This document shows, piece by piece, positions 36,589 through 44,977 of a DNA stretch of 64,000 nucleotides; positions within the stretch are counted from its first letter, which is position 1; each line of letters starts with the position of its first letter. Source of the stretch: Treponema bryantii (GTDB lineage: Bacteria > Spirochaetota > Spirochaetia > Treponematales > Treponemataceae); contig NZ_FOFU01000001.1 of assembly GCF_900111035.1 (NCBI RefSeq), positions 256,558 through 320,557 on the forward strand. The letters run 5' to 3'. The notes below the pieces were generated by a model. That model had not been told where the DNA came from. It did no database searches and saw nothing but the letters and a program-made list of their open reading frames with translations. The position numbers and the translations under genes are program-made.

Positions 36589-37704
36589 ATGAACGCACGT
36601 TTTATTCTGAGACAAAGTTTTTTATTTTCTCTGATTTTTCTGCTGCTGGCGACTTTGTTTGTTTCCTGTAAAAAACGCGGACAACAGACTGATGTAGAAA
36701 ACTCTGCCGAAGAAAAATCAGATGAGGAATTGTATTCTTTTTACAGTCCTGCAGAAGATGACGCTTCCTGGGTAGAAGAGCTTTTGCTGCATATTGAAGA
36801 AGAGAGAATTGCAGAAGAACTTTCTAAGATGGAAGACTCTCTGACAGAATATCAGATTGACGAAATACCGCCTGAAGTTTCAGAGACAGAAGAGACTGCT
36901 GAATCAGAAGAAACTCAAGCCGAAGAAAAAGTTTTCATTGGAAAAAACAATGAAATGAGATTCTTTGAATACAATAATGAAATTCTCATGCCGCAATATA
37001 CAGAGGACGGGCTTATTATAATTCATTCTGCAGACGGAAATGTTGTCAGAAATTTTTACAATAATGATTATCAGCTTGTAAAAAAAGAAGAGTGGAAAAT
37101 TGCTTCTGCGTCAGATGCAAAGAAACTTCGTAGCGAGATATTTGTTTATTCAGAAGAGACAGGAAAAGTTATTAAGAAGGATATTCTTACAGATACTGAT
37201 GTTGAAACTGTAAATTATAATTCAGATTCATCACCTGTTGCTTCTGTGAAGTATATTTTGAAGGATGAAAAAAGATATCTGGTTATGGAAAGAAACTGGT
37301 TTTATGATGAACAGAATCGTATTCTAAAAGACGAACAGAAGGAATACTCTTATAAGGATTCTGTTTATGATAATAAGCCTGTCCTTTTTTCAAAAAGATA
37401 TGAATATAATTATACAAATACAGATGAACTGAATAACGAAAAAGATGCTGAAGATACAACTGAAAACACTACAGATAATACAGCTCCAATTCCACCAGAT
37501 TCAAAATATTTTGAAAATGATGTGTTAAAAATGCAGAATCAATATACAAAGAAAAAAGGAACTTATTTAACCAGAATATATTTTGATTCCGTTTTTTCTG
37601 TCATAACTTATTATGAAGATGACTTCCGCCTTCGTGATGAATATTATAATAACGGTCGCTTATTCAGAACAAAGGTTTACGAAAGAGTTGGAGAAGGAAA
37701 TTGA
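36589..37704 (+). CDS. Acidic lipoprotein of unknown function
   Basis: 371 residues. A signal peptide ends in the lipobox LFVSC (Cys27). The next 90 residues are very acidic and probably unstructured. The rest has repeated strand-turn units of the kind YNNDYQLVKKEEW and FYDEQNRILKDEQ, as in MORN or YD-type repeat proteins. It sits immediately before, and overlaps by 4 bp, the Lol-type transporter genes that would sort lipoproteins. That link is only contextual. Confidence 0.78.
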   Translation: MNARFILRQSFLFSLIFLLLATLFVSCKKRGQQTDVENSAEEKSDEELYSFYSPAEDDASWVEELLLHIEEERIAEELSKMEDSLTEYQIDEIPPEVSETEETAESEETQAEEKVFIGKNNEMRFFEYNNEILMPQYTEDGLIIIHSADGNVVRNFYNNDYQLVKKEEWKIASASDAKKLRSEIFVYSEETGKVIKKDILTDTDVETVNYNSDSSPVASVKYILKDEKRYLVMERNWFYDEQNRILKDEQKEYSYKDSVYDNKPVLFSKRYEYNYTNTDELNNEKDAEDTTENTTDNTAPIPPDSKYFENDVLKMQNQYTKKKGTYLTRIYFDSVFSVITYYEDDFRLRDEYYNNGRLFRTKVYERVGEGN

Positions 37705-39002
37705 AAAAGAACTTAATTACACAAATCAGATGGATTTCCGCAGTTTCCAGACGCTTTGCCCGTGTAGACAGAAAGGGACGTTCTGCAGTTACTTCAAGAC
37801 TTGCGACTCTTGGTATCTGCTTTGGTGTTATGACACTTACTGTTGTAATGAGCATTATGAATGGTTTTCAGATGAGCTTTATAGATGCAATTCTGGAGGT
37901 TTCGTCATATCATCTACGTGCAGTTGATGTGCCAGAGCATTTAGAAAAGAATCTGATTTCTGTTTGTGCTGAAGATAAGCATGTTGCAGCCTGTGTTCCT
38001 TTTTATGAGTCTCAGGTTTTAATGACTGGCGAAAAAGGTGGAGCAGTTGCCGTTAATGTTCGTGCTGCTGATGAAGCAATTTACTACGAAGATGAAGGCT
38101 TTAGAAAGCAGCTTAAAATGCTTTCCGGAGCTTTTGATTTTTCTGATTCTGATTCAATAATATTAGGAAGTTCTCTGGCACGGAATCTAGGTGTTCGTGT
38201 TGGAAGCAATGTTAACCTGCTCGTAATGAGTGGTGGAAGTGATGTAGAACTTTTTTCTTCCGATAGAATTTTTACAGTTCGCGGCATTTTTACTACCGGC
38301 TATGCAGAAATAAATAACTCCTATGCTTTTGTCGGTACAGAAGCTGCTAAGAAATATTTCGGAAGTTCTGCTAAAAAAATCTGGGGAATTAAGCTTCATA
38401 AATACGATGGAGATTTACGAGCGATTTCTTCTCTTAAAAAAGAACTTCCTCAAATCAATTTTCTTTCATGGAGAAACTTTAACCGGACTTTCTTTGGTGC
38501 ATTGCGAATTGAAAAAAATATGCTGCTGCTTTTAGTAGCACTTATTTTTGTTGTCGTTGCAATAAATATTTATAACGGTATGCGCCGTCTTGTTTTTGAG
38601 CGCCGAACAGAAATTGCAGTATTGTCTGCCTTGGGAGCACGTAAATCTGGAATAAAGGCAATTTTTATAATGCGTGGATTTATTATGGGAACTCTCGGTG
38701 CTCTTGTTGGAGTTTTACTAGGTCTGCTTATCAGTTTGAATACAGATGTTGTATTTACTGCTGCTGCAAAATTGATGTATGCAATTCAATATTTGGTCAC
38801 TGCAATTACAGACAGACAGAATCTTCAGTATGTACAGGTTAATTCTTCTTATAATCTTTATGCAACAATACCAGCACGTGTTTTCCCTGGAGAAGTTACA
38901 GCAATAGCACTTTTTGGAATTCTTTCACCGCTTATTGCTTCACTTGCTGCAAGTAAAAATGTTTTGAAAATGACAGTTTCGGAGGTACTTCATAATGAGT
39001 AA
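37701..39002 (+). CDS. LolC/LolE-type ABC permease (first)
   Basis: 433 residues. One N-terminal membrane helix (about 30-55), a large extracytoplasmic domain (about 60-265) and three C-terminal helices give the MacB/LolC-E topology. The FtsX-type segment ERRTEIAVLSALGARKSGI is clear. With the ATPase and second permease downstream it forms a LolCDE-like complex that releases lipoproteins from the inner membrane. It overlaps the ATPase gene by 8 bp. Confidence 0.88.
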   Translation: MKKNLITQIRWISAVSRRFARVDRKGRSAVTSRLATLGICFGVMTLTVVMSIMNGFQMSFIDAILEVSSYHLRAVDVPEHLEKNLISVCAEDKHVAACVPFYESQVLMTGEKGGAVAVNVRAADEAIYYEDEGFRKQLKMLSGAFDFSDSDSIILGSSLARNLGVRVGSNVNLLVMSGGSDVELFSSDRIFTVRGIFTTGYAEINNSYAFVGTEAAKKYFGSSAKKIWGIKLHKYDGDLRAISSLKKELPQINFLSWRNFNRTFFGALRIEKNMLLLLVALIFVVVAINIYNGMRRLVFERRTEIAVLSALGARKSGIKAIFIMRGFIMGTLGALVGVLLGLLISLNTDVVFTAAAKLMYAIQYLVTAITDRQNLQYVQVNSSYNLYATIPARVFPGEVTAIALFGILSPLIASLAASKNVLKMTVSEVLHNE

Positions 39003-39666
39003 TATCCTTACAATAAAAAATCTTGAAAAGGTTTATGTAACAGACAGTGAACGTCTCACAGTTCTTAAGGGCCTGAATCTTAATGTTGAGGAAGGTTCTA
39101 AAATTGCTGTAGTAGGTGAGAGCGGTAGTGGAAAAAGTACCCTGCTGAATATTATCGGTGGAATTGATAATGCCACAAGCGGAACTGTAACAGCCGGTGA
39201 ATGGGAAGTAACTTCTCTGACTGAAGCAAAAATGTCTGAATACCGTTCTAATTTTCTTGGTCTGATTTTTCAGTTTCATTACCTTCTCAAAGATTTTACA
39301 GCACTTGAAAATGTTTACATGCCGGCATTGATTGCAGGCTTACCAAAAAAGGATGCAATTGAACGTGCAACTCAGCTTTTGAATGATGTTGGAGTTGCAG
39401 AAAGAAAGGATCACCTTCCATCTCAGCTTTCTGGTGGTGAGCGTCAGAGAGTTGCTGTAGCACGTGCCCTTATAAATGATCCTAGCCTGATTCTTGCTGA
39501 TGAACCTACAGGAAATCTGGACCCTGCAAATGCAGAAAAAATCGGCAGTCTTCTTTTCTCAATGGCAGATAAATATAAAAAGACTTTAATCCTTGTAACT
39601 CATGATATGAAGCTTGCTGCAAATGCAGATTATCAGTTCAGTATTGTAGAGGGAAGACTTAAATGA
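38995..39666 (+). CDS. lolD: LolD-type ABC transporter ATPase
   Basis: 223 residues. Walker [14 protein letters not shown]-loop FQFHYLLKDFTA, signature LSGGERQRVAVARAL, Walker B LILADEPTGNLDP and switch His in VTHD are all present. The sequence is of the MacB/LolD/FtsE class. It is flanked by two FtsX-type permeases with overlaps of 8 and 4 bp, which supports one complex. Confidence 0.95.
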   Translation: MSNILTIKNLEKVYVTDSERLTVLKGLNLNVEEGSKIAVVGESGSGKSTLLNIIGGIDNATSGTVTAGEWEVTSLTEAKMSEYRSNFLGLIFQFHYLLKDFTALENVYMPALIAGLPKKDAIERATQLLNDVGVAERKDHLPSQLSGGERQRVAVARALINDPSLILADEPTGNLDPANAEKIGSLLFSMADKYKKTLILVTHDMKLAANADYQFSIVEGRLK

Positions 39667-40979
39667 TTTTTTCATATTCCTTGAAATTTGCAAAAAGCCT
39701 GATTTTCCCTAAATCTGAAAAGAAGTCTGTTGCACGAAGAAGTCTTTTTGGAGCAGTGCTGTGTATTGGTTTAAGTATTGTTCCTCTTGTTGTAGTAACT
39801 TCAATTACTAACGGCATGATAGACGGAATGACGCAGCGAATTATAGGACTGTCTTCATCTCACATCCAGGCTTATGTTGCATTGGGTATCAGTAAGGTTC
39901 AGATTGCAGAAGATTTTATAGAATATGCTGATGAGGCAGGTGAAGTACGGGGAGTAACCGGTGTATATCCGGAAGTAGAGATTTCTGCAATTGCAGCCGG
40001 TAAAAATGGCCGAAGTGGTATAGAACTCCGTGCCATAGAGAAAGACATCTTTAAGAGAAATAAATCTTTTAATTCATTGTTTGAAGTTTGTGAAGGTGAA
40101 CTTAATGCTTTTATATCTCCGGATGAAAGTGCAAAAAGATCCCCCGCTGTAATAGGAAAAAAACTTGCCGAGGAACTTGAACTTCATGCAGGTGATGCTT
40201 TCCGTGTTATAACTACAAGAACTGCCGGTGATAAAATTGTTCCAAAGCTTACGTCCTTTACTGTTGCGGCAGTAGTTTCTTCTGGATATCAGGAACTGGA
40301 TCAGTTCTGGGTGTTTATTCCAATTGAAGCTGCTTATAACTCACTTTCAATGGAAAGTGCCTCTTATAATGTAATGTTCGAAACAGAAGATGCCTTTTCT
40401 CCAAATCTTGTTTCCATTCAAAAAAAACTTGCCGGAAACTTCGGACGTTATGCAAATGTTTACCGCTGGGACCAGATTCATACAGCTGAGTTTGAAAACT
40501 TTTCATCAACAAAAGTAATGCTTGTATTTGTTATGATGCTCATTGTTCTGGTGGCAACTATAAATATTTCTTCTGCTATTGTAATGCTTGTTATGGAACG
40601 CCAGAAAGAAATTGCAATATTGAAAAGTATTGGTGCAAAGCCTCGGGGCATTACTCTGGCATTTTTGACTGCAGCTCTTGCCTGTGGTGCCGGGGGGCTT
40701 GTAATTGGGCTTCCAATCGGTATAATTCTTACAGTTTTTTCAAATCAGATTGTTCATGGGCTTGAAAGTCTTGTGAATTTGATTTCTGCTATGGGTGGGG
40801 GCGGAGAAATCCATCTTATGGATCCTGCCTATTATTTATCTGAAATTCCAGTTGAAATTCCTGGAATTCAGATTATCCTTATATCCGTATCAGTTTTGAT
40901 TCTTTCAGTGCTGGTTTCTTATATTCCTGCACGAAAAGCTGGTCGTGAAAAACCGCTCGATATATTGAGAAAGAATTAA
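39663..40979 (+). CDS. LolC/LolE-type ABC permease (second)
   Basis: 438 residues, paralogous to the permease at 37701. An N-terminal helix (about 28-55), an extracytoplasmic domain (about 60-285) and three C-terminal helices are seen, with the motif ERQKEIAILKSIGAKPRGI. It is the second half of the presumed LolCDE-like transporter. The end PLDILRKN is typical of the family. mcsA follows 21 bp later. Confidence 0.88.
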   Translation: MIFSYSLKFAKSLIFPKSEKKSVARRSLFGAVLCIGLSIVPLVVVTSITNGMIDGMTQRIIGLSSSHIQAYVALGISKVQIAEDFIEYADEAGEVRGVTGVYPEVEISAIAAGKNGRSGIELRAIEKDIFKRNKSFNSLFEVCEGELNAFISPDESAKRSPAVIGKKLAEELELHAGDAFRVITTRTAGDKIVPKLTSFTVAAVVSSGYQELDQFWVFIPIEAAYNSLSMESASYNVMFETEDAFSPNLVSIQKKLAGNFGRYANVYRWDQIHTAEFENFSSTKVMLVFVMMLIVLVATINISSAIVMLVMERQKEIAILKSIGAKPRGITLAFLTAALACGAGGLVIGLPIGIILTVFSNQIVHGLESLVNLISAMGGGGEIHLMDPAYYLSEIPVEIPGIQIILISVSVLILSVLVSYIPARKAGREKPLDILRKN

Positions 40980-41000: not shown

Positions 41001-41315
41001 ATGAAGTGTTGTTCGGTGTGCGGATGCACCTTTGATCAGATCGTAAAGTCTCAAAGAATTGGCTGTGCAGAGTGTTATTACACCTTTGCAGAGGAATTCC
41101 GTGCGACTCTTGAAACTTACGGAATTTCAGGAGAGTATAAGGGCTCTCTGCCAAAACGCCTGAAGGGCTACCGTTCTACACTAGTTGACCGCATGACAAT
41201 GCAGATTAAGCTTGAAGAAGCTGTAGCAGCAGAAGATTACGAAAAGGCTGCTTTATATCGCGATTATCTAAAGGTTTTGAATCATGGCACGGAAATCAAA
41301 GACGGACAACAGTAA
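41001..41315 (+). CDS. mcsA: McsA-like zinc/UVR-motif protein, short
   Basis: 104 residues. Cysteine pairs CCSVCGC and CAEC suggest one zinc site. The end holds a UVR motif (KLEEAVAAEDYEKAALYRD). Bacillus McsA (about 185 residues) has two zinc clusters and activates the arginine kinase McsB, so this is a reduced form. ATG 41001 is preferred over GTG 40992 because GGGAGG (40986-40991) is placed correctly. It is followed by mcsB with a 32-bp overlap. Confidence 0.85.
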   Translation: MKCCSVCGCTFDQIVKSQRIGCAECYYTFAEEFRATLETYGISGEYKGSLPKRLKGYRSTLVDRMTMQIKLEEAVAAEDYEKAALYRDYLKVLNHGTEIKDGQQ

Positions 41316-42414
41316 TTCAGAGAAAAAAACGGGCAGTGCAGCTGGTACTGCCGGTGAAAATGTCTGGTTTTCAATGCCTGGAAAATATGATGATGTAGTT
41401 ATTTCTACAAGGGCTCGAATTTCCAGAAATCTTGCAGATTTTCCTTTCCCTTCAAAAATGAGCGCAGATGATAAAGCACGTGTTCAATCTTTAGTTTATG
41501 ATGCCTTTTCTGGTGCTGAAAACTGGCGTTTTATTGATATGTCTCAGATTTCGGAGCCCGGAAAACAGATTTTACAGGATAAAAATATTCTTGATGAAGA
41601 ATGCGGAGCTGCGGTAATCAATTATGGTGATGAAAGTTCCAGTTGTCTTGTAAATGGTATAGATCATATAAAAGTATCATCGTTTGTTTCAGGACTGGAC
41701 TGTGAAAAAGCAATGGAAAAGGTCTATAAAACAGACGAATTTCTTCAGGAAAAGCTCCAGTTTGCAGCAAGTATTGATTTTGGATACCTTACAAGTCAGA
41801 TTAAGGACTGTGGAACCGGCTTAAAGTTCAGTGTACGGGTTTTTCTGCCGTCTATAGTGCTTTCCGGTCAGTTTGAATCTATTGTGAGCCTTGTACATTC
41901 AAAAAAAATGTCTATAAAGCCAGTTTTTAAGAGTGAACAGCTGGCTGATTTTTCAAACTGCCTTTTTGATATTACAACTACCAGCTGCGCAGAAGGAACT
42001 GAACTCGACCAGATGGCCGGAATTCACTCGATTGCAAGCGTTATTTTAAAAAAGGAACGCAAGATTCGGTCAAATTTTGCCGATAATAATCCTACAGTAG
42101 TCTTGAATTTTTTTAAGCAAAGCTATGCCCGTGCAATGTATTCACTGCTGCTTTCGTATGAAGAAGCAGTAAGTATTATATCTGCCGTTAAATGGGGGCT
42201 TCAGCTCAAGCTTGTAAAGGGAATTACGGAGACCGAACTGAACGGACTTTATTACCGTGTTAAGGATGGTCATCTCAAATACCTTTGCGACAATTTTGCC
42301 TTTACCTTTGAAGAGGATATTAAGGCCAGCAGTGCTTTGCAGATAAAAAGACTCAGGACAATTGTAATTCAGCAGGCCTTTGAGGGAATCGTTAATGAAA
42401 AACCTGTCTCCTAG
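41284..42414 (+). CDS. mcsB: McsB-like guanido kinase homologue, probably catalytically degenerate
   Basis: 376 residues. The fold of the ATP:guanido phosphotransferase family is recognisable from ISTRARISRNLADFPFP, DHIKVSSF and GTGLKFSVRVFLPS. In active McsB the catalytic Glu pair is in NEEDH. Here the stretch is NGIDH (residues 124-128). The loop Cys of LTSCPTN is Gln (LTSQIKD, residues 169-175), and the C-terminal RDxxRA phospho-arginine pocket motif is not found. Position between mcsA and clpC fits a role in ClpC targeting, perhaps as an adaptor rather than a kinase (inference). Confidence 0.85.
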   Translation: MARKSKTDNSNSEKKTGSAAGTAGENVWFSMPGKYDDVVISTRARISRNLADFPFPSKMSADDKARVQSLVYDAFSGAENWRFIDMSQISEPGKQILQDKNILDEECGAAVINYGDESSSCLVNGIDHIKVSSFVSGLDCEKAMEKVYKTDEFLQEKLQFAASIDFGYLTSQIKDCGTGLKFSVRVFLPSIVLSGQFESIVSLVHSKKMSIKPVFKSEQLADFSNCLFDITTTSCAEGTELDQMAGIHSIASVILKKERKIRSNFADNNPTVVLNFFKQSYARAMYSLLLSYEEAVSIISAVKWGLQLKLVKGITETELNGLYYRVKDGHLKYLCDNFAFTFEEDIKASSALQIKRLRTIVIQQAFEGIVNEKPVS

Positions 42415-44977
42415 AGCAAAAAAAATCTTGATGGTACTGGCACAGGATGAAGCCAGAAAAATCGGAAGCACACAACTTTTACCAGAGCATGTTGTTCTCG
42501 CAATTTTGAAATCAAAGGAAGGTCTTGGATATTCTGCAATTTCAGAGCTGGGCCTTGATTCATCTAAGCTCGAAACTGCAATTGAAACTTTTTTCCGTGA
42601 TGATATCCGGAATCCAACTCTCGACTCAATTCCAAAGAGTCGTCGTTATCAGTTTTTGATTGATATAGCAGATATTGAATCTTCTGCTTTACATAATAAT
42701 TATATTGGTACTGAACATCTTCTGCTTGCAGCTATTCGTGATGAAGGTAGTGTTACTGCAAAGTTCTTTGCAGATGAAGGCTACACAATTATGGATGCCC
42801 GATTTACTATGATGGAACTTCAGGCAGATGTCGGTTCTTCAATCCGACAGAAGGATGCAGAGAGTCTTGTTGATTCTGTTTTCAGAAGTCTCTTAAATGA
42901 CGATGCCGGTGGCGGGCTTTTTGGTGTTTTTGATGAAAAAAAATCAGAAAGAAAGCAGCCAATTGATAAATCTAATGCCGGACAGAAGCAGTCATTCCTT
43001 GCAGAATACAGCCGCGACCTTACTAAACTTGCACGCGAAAATAAAGATGATCCTGTTGTTGGACGCGATAAGGAAATCCATCGCGTAATTCAGATTCTTT
43101 CTCGCCGAACTAAAAATAATCCTGTTCTTACTGGAGAACCAGGCGTTGGAAAAACTGCAATTGTAGAAGGACTCGCTCAGCACATTGCCGCAGGAAAAGT
43201 TCCGGAAGGCCTTTTGAATAAACGTATTTTATCGCTTGATCTTGCTGCAATTGTTGCAGGTACTAAGTACCGCGGTGAGTTTGAAGAGCGCATGAAAAAG
43301 ATGATGAAGGAGCTTCAGGATAATAAGGACATCATCCTCTTTATCGATGAACTTCACACAATTATTGGAGCTGGTGGTCCGGAAGGAACAATGGATGCTT
43401 CAAACATCATGAAACCGGCTCTTTCACGCGGTGAGATTCAGATTATTGGTGCAACTACAACAAAAGAATATACCCGTCATATTGAAAAGGATCTTGCACT
43501 TGAACGCCGTTTCCAGGTTGTTAAGGTTGAAGAACCGGGAGATCAGGAAACAGAAGAGATTCTTAATGGCATTAAAACAAAATATGAAAACTACCATAGG
43601 GTAGTTTATGATGATGCTGTTGTTCCTGCAATTGTAAAGCTTAGCCGCCGCTATATTCCTGAGAAGGTTTTGCCAGATAAGGCTATTGATATTCTTGATG
43701 AAGCTGGAGCTGCTAAAAAAATTCAGGAAGAAGCACGTCCAGCTGAACTTGCTGAACTTGAACAGAATATCAGTCAATTGATAGAAGAAAAGACTTCACT
43801 TGTAAAAAATCAGGATTATGAAAGTGCTGCTCTTGTACGAGATAAAGTTATTGATCTCAAACGTCGTCTGAATGTATATACAGATCTCTGGAAGAAAAAC
43901 GGAAGCACTGGTACAAAGCGTGTTACAGTTTCTGATGTAGAACATATTATCAGTGAGATGACAGGTGTTCCTGTCGAGCGTCTTTCTTCATCAGAAGCTG
44001 AGCGTATCGTTCACATGGAAGATGAACTTCACAATACTGTAATTGGACAGAACAGTGCCGTAAGTGTAATCAGCGGTGCAATCCGTCGCGCACGTGCCGG
44101 TATATCTTCTCCAAAACATCCGGTCGGTAGTTTTATTTTCCTTGGACCTACAGGTGTCGGTAAAACTCAGCTTGCTAAGGCTCTTGCTAAATATCTTTTT
44201 GGAAGCGAAGATTCGTTAATCAGAATTGATATGTCTGACTATATGGAAAAGCATACTGCGAGCCGCCTTGTTGGAGCACCTCCTGGATACGTTGGTTACG
44301 AAGAGGGTGGTGTGCTTACAGAAAAAGTTCGCCGTCATCCATATTCAGTTGTATTGCTCGATGAAATCGAAAAAGCACATCCAGATATCTTCAATCTGCT
44401 TTTGCAGCTTCTTGAAGAAGGTGAGCTTTCGGATAATCTCGGCCACACTGTAAACTTCCGCAATACTGTAATCATTATGACAAGTAATGCTGGTGCCCGT
44501 CAGATTACAAATGAAGGTCGTGTTGGCTTTGGAACTCTGGACGGAGTTATGCCGTACGAAGAAATCAAAGCGGGTGCAATGAATGAGCTTAAAAAACTTT
44601 TAAGTCCTGAACTCATAAACCGTATTGATGACGTTATTGTATTTGATGCACTTTCAAAGAAAGAAGTTTCTAAGATTCTCGATATACAGCTTGCAGAACT
44701 TGGTGAACGCCTTGCAGAAAAAGGTCTTACAATCAGCCTTAAGCCAAAAGCTAAGGAATACCTTATTGAAAACGGCTATAATCCTGCAATGGGTGCTCGT
44801 CCAATGAAGAGACTCATCCGAAAGGAGATAGAAGATCCTCTTTCTATGGAACTTCTCTCTAATGCCGGAAAAGATTATAATACAGTAACAATAGAATGCA
44901 ATTCAGGAAAAATCAAAGTTCATCTGGAAAAAACAGAAGACAAAGTTCCTGTAGTTGCAGTGAAGGAGAGAATATGA
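42395..44977 (+). CDS. clpC: ATP-dependent Clp protease ATPase ClpC
   Basis: 860 residues. A double Clp N domain (1-150), first AAA+ domain (Walker A GEPGVGKTAIVEGLA), middle domain with a UVR motif (EKTSLVKNQDYESAALVRDK) and second AAA+ domain (GPTGVGKTQLAKALA) are seen. It unfolds substrates for ClpP. The UVR motif could contact McsA. ATG 42395 has GAGGG (42382-42386) eight bases upstream and overlaps mcsB by 20 bp. No ctsR or clpP is present here. Confidence 0.95.
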   Translation: MKNLSPRAKKILMVLAQDEARKIGSTQLLPEHVVLAILKSKEGLGYSAISELGLDSSKLETAIETFFRDDIRNPTLDSIPKSRRYQFLIDIADIESSALHNNYIGTEHLLLAAIRDEGSVTAKFFADEGYTIMDARFTMMELQADVGSSIRQKDAESLVDSVFRSLLNDDAGGGLFGVFDEKKSERKQPIDKSNAGQKQSFLAEYSRDLTKLARENKDDPVVGRDKEIHRVIQILSRRTKNNPVLTGEPGVGKTAIVEGLAQHIAAGKVPEGLLNKRILSLDLAAIVAGTKYRGEFEERMKKMMKELQDNKDIILFIDELHTIIGAGGPEGTMDASNIMKPALSRGEIQIIGATTTKEYTRHIEKDLALERRFQVVKVEEPGDQETEEILNGIKTKYENYHRVVYDDAVVPAIVKLSRRYIPEKVLPDKAIDILDEAGAAKKIQEEARPAELAELEQNISQLIEEKTSLVKNQDYESAALVRDKVIDLKRRLNVYTDLWKKNGSTGTKRVTVSDVEHIISEMTGVPVERLSSSEAERIVHMEDELHNTVIGQNSAVSVISGAIRRARAGISSPKHPVGSFIFLGPTGVGKTQLAKALAKYLFGSEDSLIRIDMSDYMEKHTASRLVGAPPGYVGYEEGGVLTEKVRRHPYSVVLLDEIEKAHPDIFNLLLQLLEEGELSDNLGHTVNFRNTVIIMTSNAGARQITNEGRVGFGTLDGVMPYEEIKAGAMNELKKLLSPELINRIDDVIVFDALSKKEVSKILDIQLAELGERLAEKGLTISLKPKAKEYLIENGYNPAMGARPMKRLIRKEIEDPLSMELLSNAGKDYNTVTIECNSGKIKVHLEKTEDKVPVVAVKERI

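Follow-up and report, generated by a model that had tools for sequence, protein, structure and literature searches.

Genes at the locus

The window, a stretch of 64,000 nucleotides from Treponema bryantii, carries an mcsB homologue enclosed by mcsA and clpC (Table 1). The open reading frame call in the window gives the gene an ATG start at 41,284. The preliminary description had set the start at 41,650, at the beginning of the NGIDH motif, and covered only the last two thirds of mcsB. Its statement that the gene is kept intact between mcsA and clpC holds for the complete frame, which shares 32 nt with mcsA, its immediate upstream neighbour, and 20 nt with clpC, its immediate downstream neighbour. 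Three LolC/LolD/LolE-like transporter genes lead into mcsA-mcsB-clpC, their junctions being overlaps or a gap of 21 nt, an operon-like arrangement. A search of this genome found no further McsB homologue, which rules out an additional, active copy. In the scanned collection, the closest named organism is the rumen commensal Treponema bryantii, at 82-85% identity.

Table 1. Genes of the mcsA-mcsB-clpC region and diagnostic positions within mcsB (window coordinates; substituted residues in B. subtilis numbering).
Feature	Position	Strand	Description
LolC/LolD/LolE-like ABC transporter genes (n=3)	37701..40979	+	upstream, reading into mcsA
mcsA	41001..41315	+	104 aa; one zinc finger (CSVC...CAEC) and UVR motif; N-terminal finger absent
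mcsB homologue	41284..42414	+	376 aa; phosphotransferase and C-terminal dimerisation domains; catalytic residues lost
NGIDH for NEEDH (N124-G125-I126-D127-H128)	41653..41667	+	I126 at the position of catalytic Glu121
K130 for nucleotide-binding Arg125	41671..41673	+	alignment to Bacillus McsB
QFAASIDFGYLTS, residues 159-171	41758..41796	+	lines up with the McsA-docking loop; one of the best-conserved family stretches, beside the lost Cys
Q172 for catalytic Cys167	41797..41799	+	alignment to Bacillus McsB
K181 for Arg176	41824..41826	+	Lys in 92/106 of the family and in some active-looking McsBs
Lid-loop KPVFKS for RGxYGE	41917..41934	+	Arg207 to K212, Glu212 to S217
IKRLRT (I354-K355-R356-L357-R358-T359) for pArg-pocket RDxxRA	42343..42360	+	only R358 (= R341) kept
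clpC	42395..44977	+	860 aa; Clp_N repeats, Glu32/Glu106 equivalents kept, UVR/M-domain motif, VGF tripeptide (ClpP-loop type)

Loss of catalytic residues in McsB

Residues were assigned by alignment to McsB of B. subtilis and G. stearothermophilus, in B. subtilis numbering. Eight phosphagen-kinase active-site positions were compared (R29, R31, E121, R125, C167, R176, R207, and E212), which we take to be equivalent to R124, R126, E225, R229, C271, R280, R309, and E314 of Limulus arginine kinase. At these positions, the window McsB carries R, R, I, K, Q, K, K, and S, respectively. Glu225, Glu314, and Cys271 have been named as essential contacts in arginine kinase (PMC11075012). A pArg-binding pocket has been described in Bacillus McsB, defined by the motif RDxxRA and residues R337, D338, and R341 (PMC8370763). 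The alignment reproduces the substitutions listed in the preliminary description, namely NGIDH in place of NEEDH at residues 124-128, Gln172 in place of the loop Cys, and the missing RDxxRA motif near the C-terminus, where R341 alone is kept. The same description considered sequencing error unlikely, and an independent assembly of the species (L031/G146) indeed has identical motifs. Together with similar replacements in close relatives (Treponema bryantii), this second assembly rules out a sequencing or assembly artifact.

Not all of these changes carry equal weight. The replacements of Arg176, Arg207, and Glu212 are weakened as proof of a dead enzyme by several active-looking spirochaete McsBs that vary at the same places. 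For this reason, the pseudokinase argument rests on Glu121 and Cys167, the only diagnostic sites in the comparison across the phylum.

Fold, family membership, and selection

Homology to guanidino kinases is well marked, with a PF00217 match at E 2.9e-24 (86 bits against a cut-off of 22.4) and a match to a PDB McsB sequence at E 9e-33. An AlphaFold2 model built on an alignment of 71 relatives reached a mean pLDDT of 86.8 and a pTM of 0.85. Superposition of the model on G. stearothermophilus McsB (6fh3) spans both domains, with Z 38.6 and an rmsd of 2.5 for 332 residues; Z is 38.4 for the McsB structure 6tv6, and Foldseek also places the model with McsB. The predicted kinase domain fits 8WTC with an rmsd of 1.6. 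The model thus has the McsB architecture of a phosphotransferase and a dimerisation domain. Scores against the NCBIfam protein arginine kinase equivalogs fall well below their cut-offs (171 bits versus 385 for NF002194, and 163 versus 500 for NF053707). Among the hallmarks of McsB, the operon with mcsA and clpC is present, whereas catalytic Glu121, Cys167, and the complete R337-D338-R341 pocket are absent.

The gene is under purifying selection, with dN/dS far below neutrality. Values of about 0.10-0.16 were obtained against relatives of the T. bryantii group, although dS near or above 1 makes these ratios rough. Across the 71 McsB relatives, 21 alignment columns are invariant. The protein thus combines a selected kinase fold with catalytic residues lost across the lineage, as expected of a pseudokinase.

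Distribution of the active-site residues in spirochaetes

The comparison covered 228 McsBs drawn from spirochaete genomes or records, with some genomes represented in two collections. The class of the window contributed 170 sequences (members of its family, order, and class), and other classes of the phylum contributed 58. Glu121 and Cys167 are kept together in none of the 170, compared with 25 of the 58 outside the class, where the arginines accompany them. Cys167 without Glu121 was never seen among those 58. In Treponemataceae, a Cys occupies position 167 in two of 147 McsBs, both without the Glu, and Glu121 is still present in 11 of the 147 (genera g22, g24, g28, g34, and g37). The label of probable pseudokinase, proposed earlier for this one gene, is therefore strengthened at the level of residues, as the loss extends to the whole class (0/170).

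Site variability was ranked in 106 non-redundant Treponemataceae McsBs. Asn119 and His123 are invariant and Asp122 is retained in 102 sequences, while the intervening Glu121 position ranks at the 97th percentile of site variability and Cys167 at the 86th. Many different residues occupy the Glu121 site across the family, Ile126 being the one found in the window. The Arg194 position is not conserved either (85th percentile). Taken together, the four chemistry positions exceed random sets in variability (P = 0.004). Frozen Asn119, Asp122, and His123 beside variable 121 and 167 match the expectation if the fold, and not the chemistry, is selected. A full alignment had been proposed as a check for a catalytic Glu located elsewhere; in it, no substitute Glu or Cys is conserved across the family.

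The loss does not have a simple history. A single event at the base of the class is not established, since its members do not form a clean monophyletic group in the McsB tree. Fitch parsimony over the phylum requires approximately 10 changes for Cys167 and 14 for Glu121. Family f23, which lies outside the class of the window (L228, L229, L231, L273, and L274), likewise possesses McsBs without Glu121 and Cys167. Given this family, the catalytic decay of McsB may have happened more than once.

Gene association with mcsA and clpC

Gene organization around mcsB remains highly conserved. In Treponemataceae, mcsA adjoins mcsB in 148 of 149 loci and clpC lies 3' of mcsB in 137, some of the others being contig ends. 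Ten genomes without mcsB, including a 1.1-Mb T. pallidum-like one, yielded no McsA match (0/10, by a search that is less sensitive outside the genus), yet ClpC was detected in all ten, in G013 as a clpC fragment only. Since genomes lacking mcsB also lack an McsA match while retaining clpC, McsA and McsB seem to be gained or lost as a pair. In genomes that lost mcsAB, the last Lol-like gene (lolE) stands immediately 5' of clpC. Two of them, the Treponema genomes G081 and G034 (L204 and L206), are otherwise syntenic: lolE is followed by clpC and then by the transporter gene also found downstream elsewhere, and mcsAB is missing without a trace. As clpC stands alone in several lineages, McsAB must be dispensable there.

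McsA itself varies in its metal-binding motifs. The C-terminal zinc finger is kept in 146 of 148 loci, and most other Treponema McsAs contain four CxxC motifs. The T. bryantii clade has a single zinc finger, with the N-terminal CxxC pair missing in about 29 loci (including L001-L010 and L091-L107). In Staphylococcus aureus, the C-terminal finger docks on the McsB loop Y147-Y153, next to Cys157 (PMC12467219). The McsB segment aligned with this loop ranks with the best-conserved segments of the family, though the adjacent Cys is gone.

Other components of the phosphoarginine system

Searches for CtsR returned no match in the genome or in 30 relatives; the same search also missed the B. subtilis CtsR control. 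No YwlE-type arginine phosphatase, a type marked by Thr at the PX5 position of its P-loop, was found in the genome. A single low-molecular-weight protein tyrosine phosphatase scored above the cut-off, and its P-loop, CHGNICRS, has Ile in place of that Thr. The YwlE type is likewise absent from most of the active-looking spirochaete genomes that were searched, which carry the ArsC-type CTGNSCRS, G199 alone having CTGNTCRS, and the absence of YwlE was for this reason dropped as proof that the phosphoarginine system has been lost.

The N-terminal domain of ClpC proved similarly uninformative. Its Glu32 and Glu106 equivalents, in a numbering that we assume from the B. subtilis domain sequence, are both kept. 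They are also present in ClpC of genomes without McsAB, and we did not retain them as a marker of phosphoarginine reading. Recent work also assigns these sites another role, in which they help to stabilise ClpC in its resting state (PMC12583610).

Comparison with known systems

The treponeme McsB is a variant of a known family and not another kind of system. With the Bacillus and Geobacillus proteins (PDB 6TV6 and 6FH1-6FH3) it shares the two-domain fold, the mcsA-mcsB-clpC order, the NxxDH and GxG motifs, and the STRxR arginines. It differs from them in lacking Glu121, Cys167, and the RDxxRA pocket, in its changed Arg125, Arg207, and Glu212, in a non-conserved Arg194 position, and in scoring below the NCBIfam equivalog cut-offs. 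The McsB docking segment and the McsA C-terminal zinc finger are held in common with the McsA-McsB complexes of S. aureus (8GQD) and B. subtilis (8WTB/8WTC). In the S. aureus complex, however, the contact is reported to position the catalytic Cys (PMC12467219), which the treponeme protein lacks, and McsA of the T. bryantii clade is without its N-terminal finger.

Active-looking McsBs of other spirochaete classes (L083, L084, L086-L089, and others) offer a contrast. They occur in the same mcsA-mcsB-clpC operon, also with no detectable ctsR, but keep NEEDH or NDEDH together with LTxCP. Pseudokinases of the Hanks-type Ser/Thr fold, such as chlamydial Pkn5, similarly pair an intact kinase-like fold with lost catalytic residues (PMC5177608, PMC12599244). 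Their fold is nonetheless unrelated to that of McsB, a member of the phosphagen (guanidino) kinase family.

Proposed role and alternative explanations

That McsB has lost its catalytic residues, and is hence a probable pseudokinase, is well supported by the sequence comparison. The protein very probably has no significant arginine-kinase activity. Its arginine-kinase scaffold would be retained while the phosphotransfer chemistry has gone. Given this loss, action through ClpC is somewhat likelier than not. A ClpC adaptor or regulator role is plausible from the synteny, the joint loss with mcsA, and the conserved McsA-docking segment. We regard it as an inference and not a finding, because in B. 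subtilis the adaptor action of McsB on ClpCP is reported to need kinase activity (PMC5506225). The same study reports that ClpC binds and restrains McsB and that McsB takes CtsR off DNA when not acting as a kinase (PMC5506225), which indicates binding functions of the scaffold beyond catalysis.

The explanation that best accommodates the evidence, and that we favor by a narrow measure, is a McsB pseudokinase that, together with McsA, assists ClpC as an accessory factor without catalysis. McsA and McsB would form a persistent complex, encoded by genes that overlap with each other and with clpC, and could serve as an adaptor, an activity regulator, or a brake. McsB would hold clients, or the ClpC N-terminal domain, directly, with no phosphoarginine marks written. 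The Treponemataceae genera that keep Glu121, the lineages in which clpC stands alone, and the kinase dependence reported for the B. subtilis adaptor weigh against this reading. A broader version, in which McsA-McsB was converted throughout the class to a phosphorylation-independent ClpC adaptor that recognises clients or activates ClpC by binding alone, is conceivable but falls short of an even chance.

Among the alternatives, a nucleotide- or stress-sensing regulator survives best, although it seems unlikely. Here, the McsA zinc finger would be a redox sensor and McsB its partner, with a transcription factor or another protein as the target instead of ClpC. A precedent exists in the McsA/McsB redox switch of B. 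subtilis, in which oxidised McsA frees McsB and CtsR is removed independently of kinase activity (PMC5506225). The nearly constant pairing of a cysteine-rich McsA with McsB would suit such a sensor. On the other hand, the constant neighbour of the pair is clpC and not a regulator gene. The missing CtsR points in the same direction but is weak evidence, given the failed control.

A slow or altered kinase is improbable. This reading proposes a rearranged active site, for example with Cys176 or Glu218, or a target other than arginine. The basic nucleotide-site residues R43, R45, K130, and K181 are partly kept and form the remaining basic cluster of the site. Many McsBs of the T. bryantii clade have Cys176, four residues past Gln172 (IKDCGTG). 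Moreover, the catalytic Glu of arginine kinase may be accessory, according to a 2003 reference as cited in PMC11075012, and weak activity of McsB is possible on that account. Against this, Cys176 is not conserved in the family, where position 171 is C in 35, A in 25, and S in 25 of 106 sequences, and neither is Glu218, beside the Glu212 position. Variability at positions 121 and 167 is among the highest of all sites, and a re-formed site should give newly conserved cleft residues, none of which appeared at the positions checked.

Slow decay of a functionless vestige, held in place by operon structure and translational coupling to clpC, is also improbable: the repeated disappearance of mcsAB beside a retained clpC, an mcsB whose rate of evolution, measured on the closest species, is about 2.5-3 times that of clpC (dN/dS 0.10-0.13 versus ~0.04), and a broken frame in one relative would fit it, but the frames stay open and the 21 columns invariant in 71 sequences despite an old loss of catalysis, dN/dS lies far below 1, and mcsA and mcsB vanish jointly, as expected for a functional pair. 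The broken frame (L028:1453-2572, metagenome-assembled genome G028) is an McsB split into two overlapping pieces, either a pseudogene or an assembly error.

Implications

In the literature searched, which excluded most subscription journals and preprints, we found no description of a catalytically dead McsB or of a treponeme McsB. The kinase and adaptor roles of McsB in B. subtilis are hard to separate, as the adaptor activity is phosphorylation-dependent (PMC5506225). A natural lineage that keeps the McsB fold, McsA, and the clpC operon minus the catalytic residues offers a direct way to probe non-kinase McsB function. If true, a class-wide adaptor working by binding only would show that McsB adaptor function can exist without phosphoarginine. 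Annotations as protein-arginine kinase in Treponema and the rest of the class are probably wrong on activity, which bears on phosphoproteomics and on proposals to target McsB.

Further observations

In a distant relative, G054, a single reading frame of 751 codons runs without a break through mcsA and mcsB (L076:565-2817, + strand). This frame is a possible natural McsA-McsB fusion.
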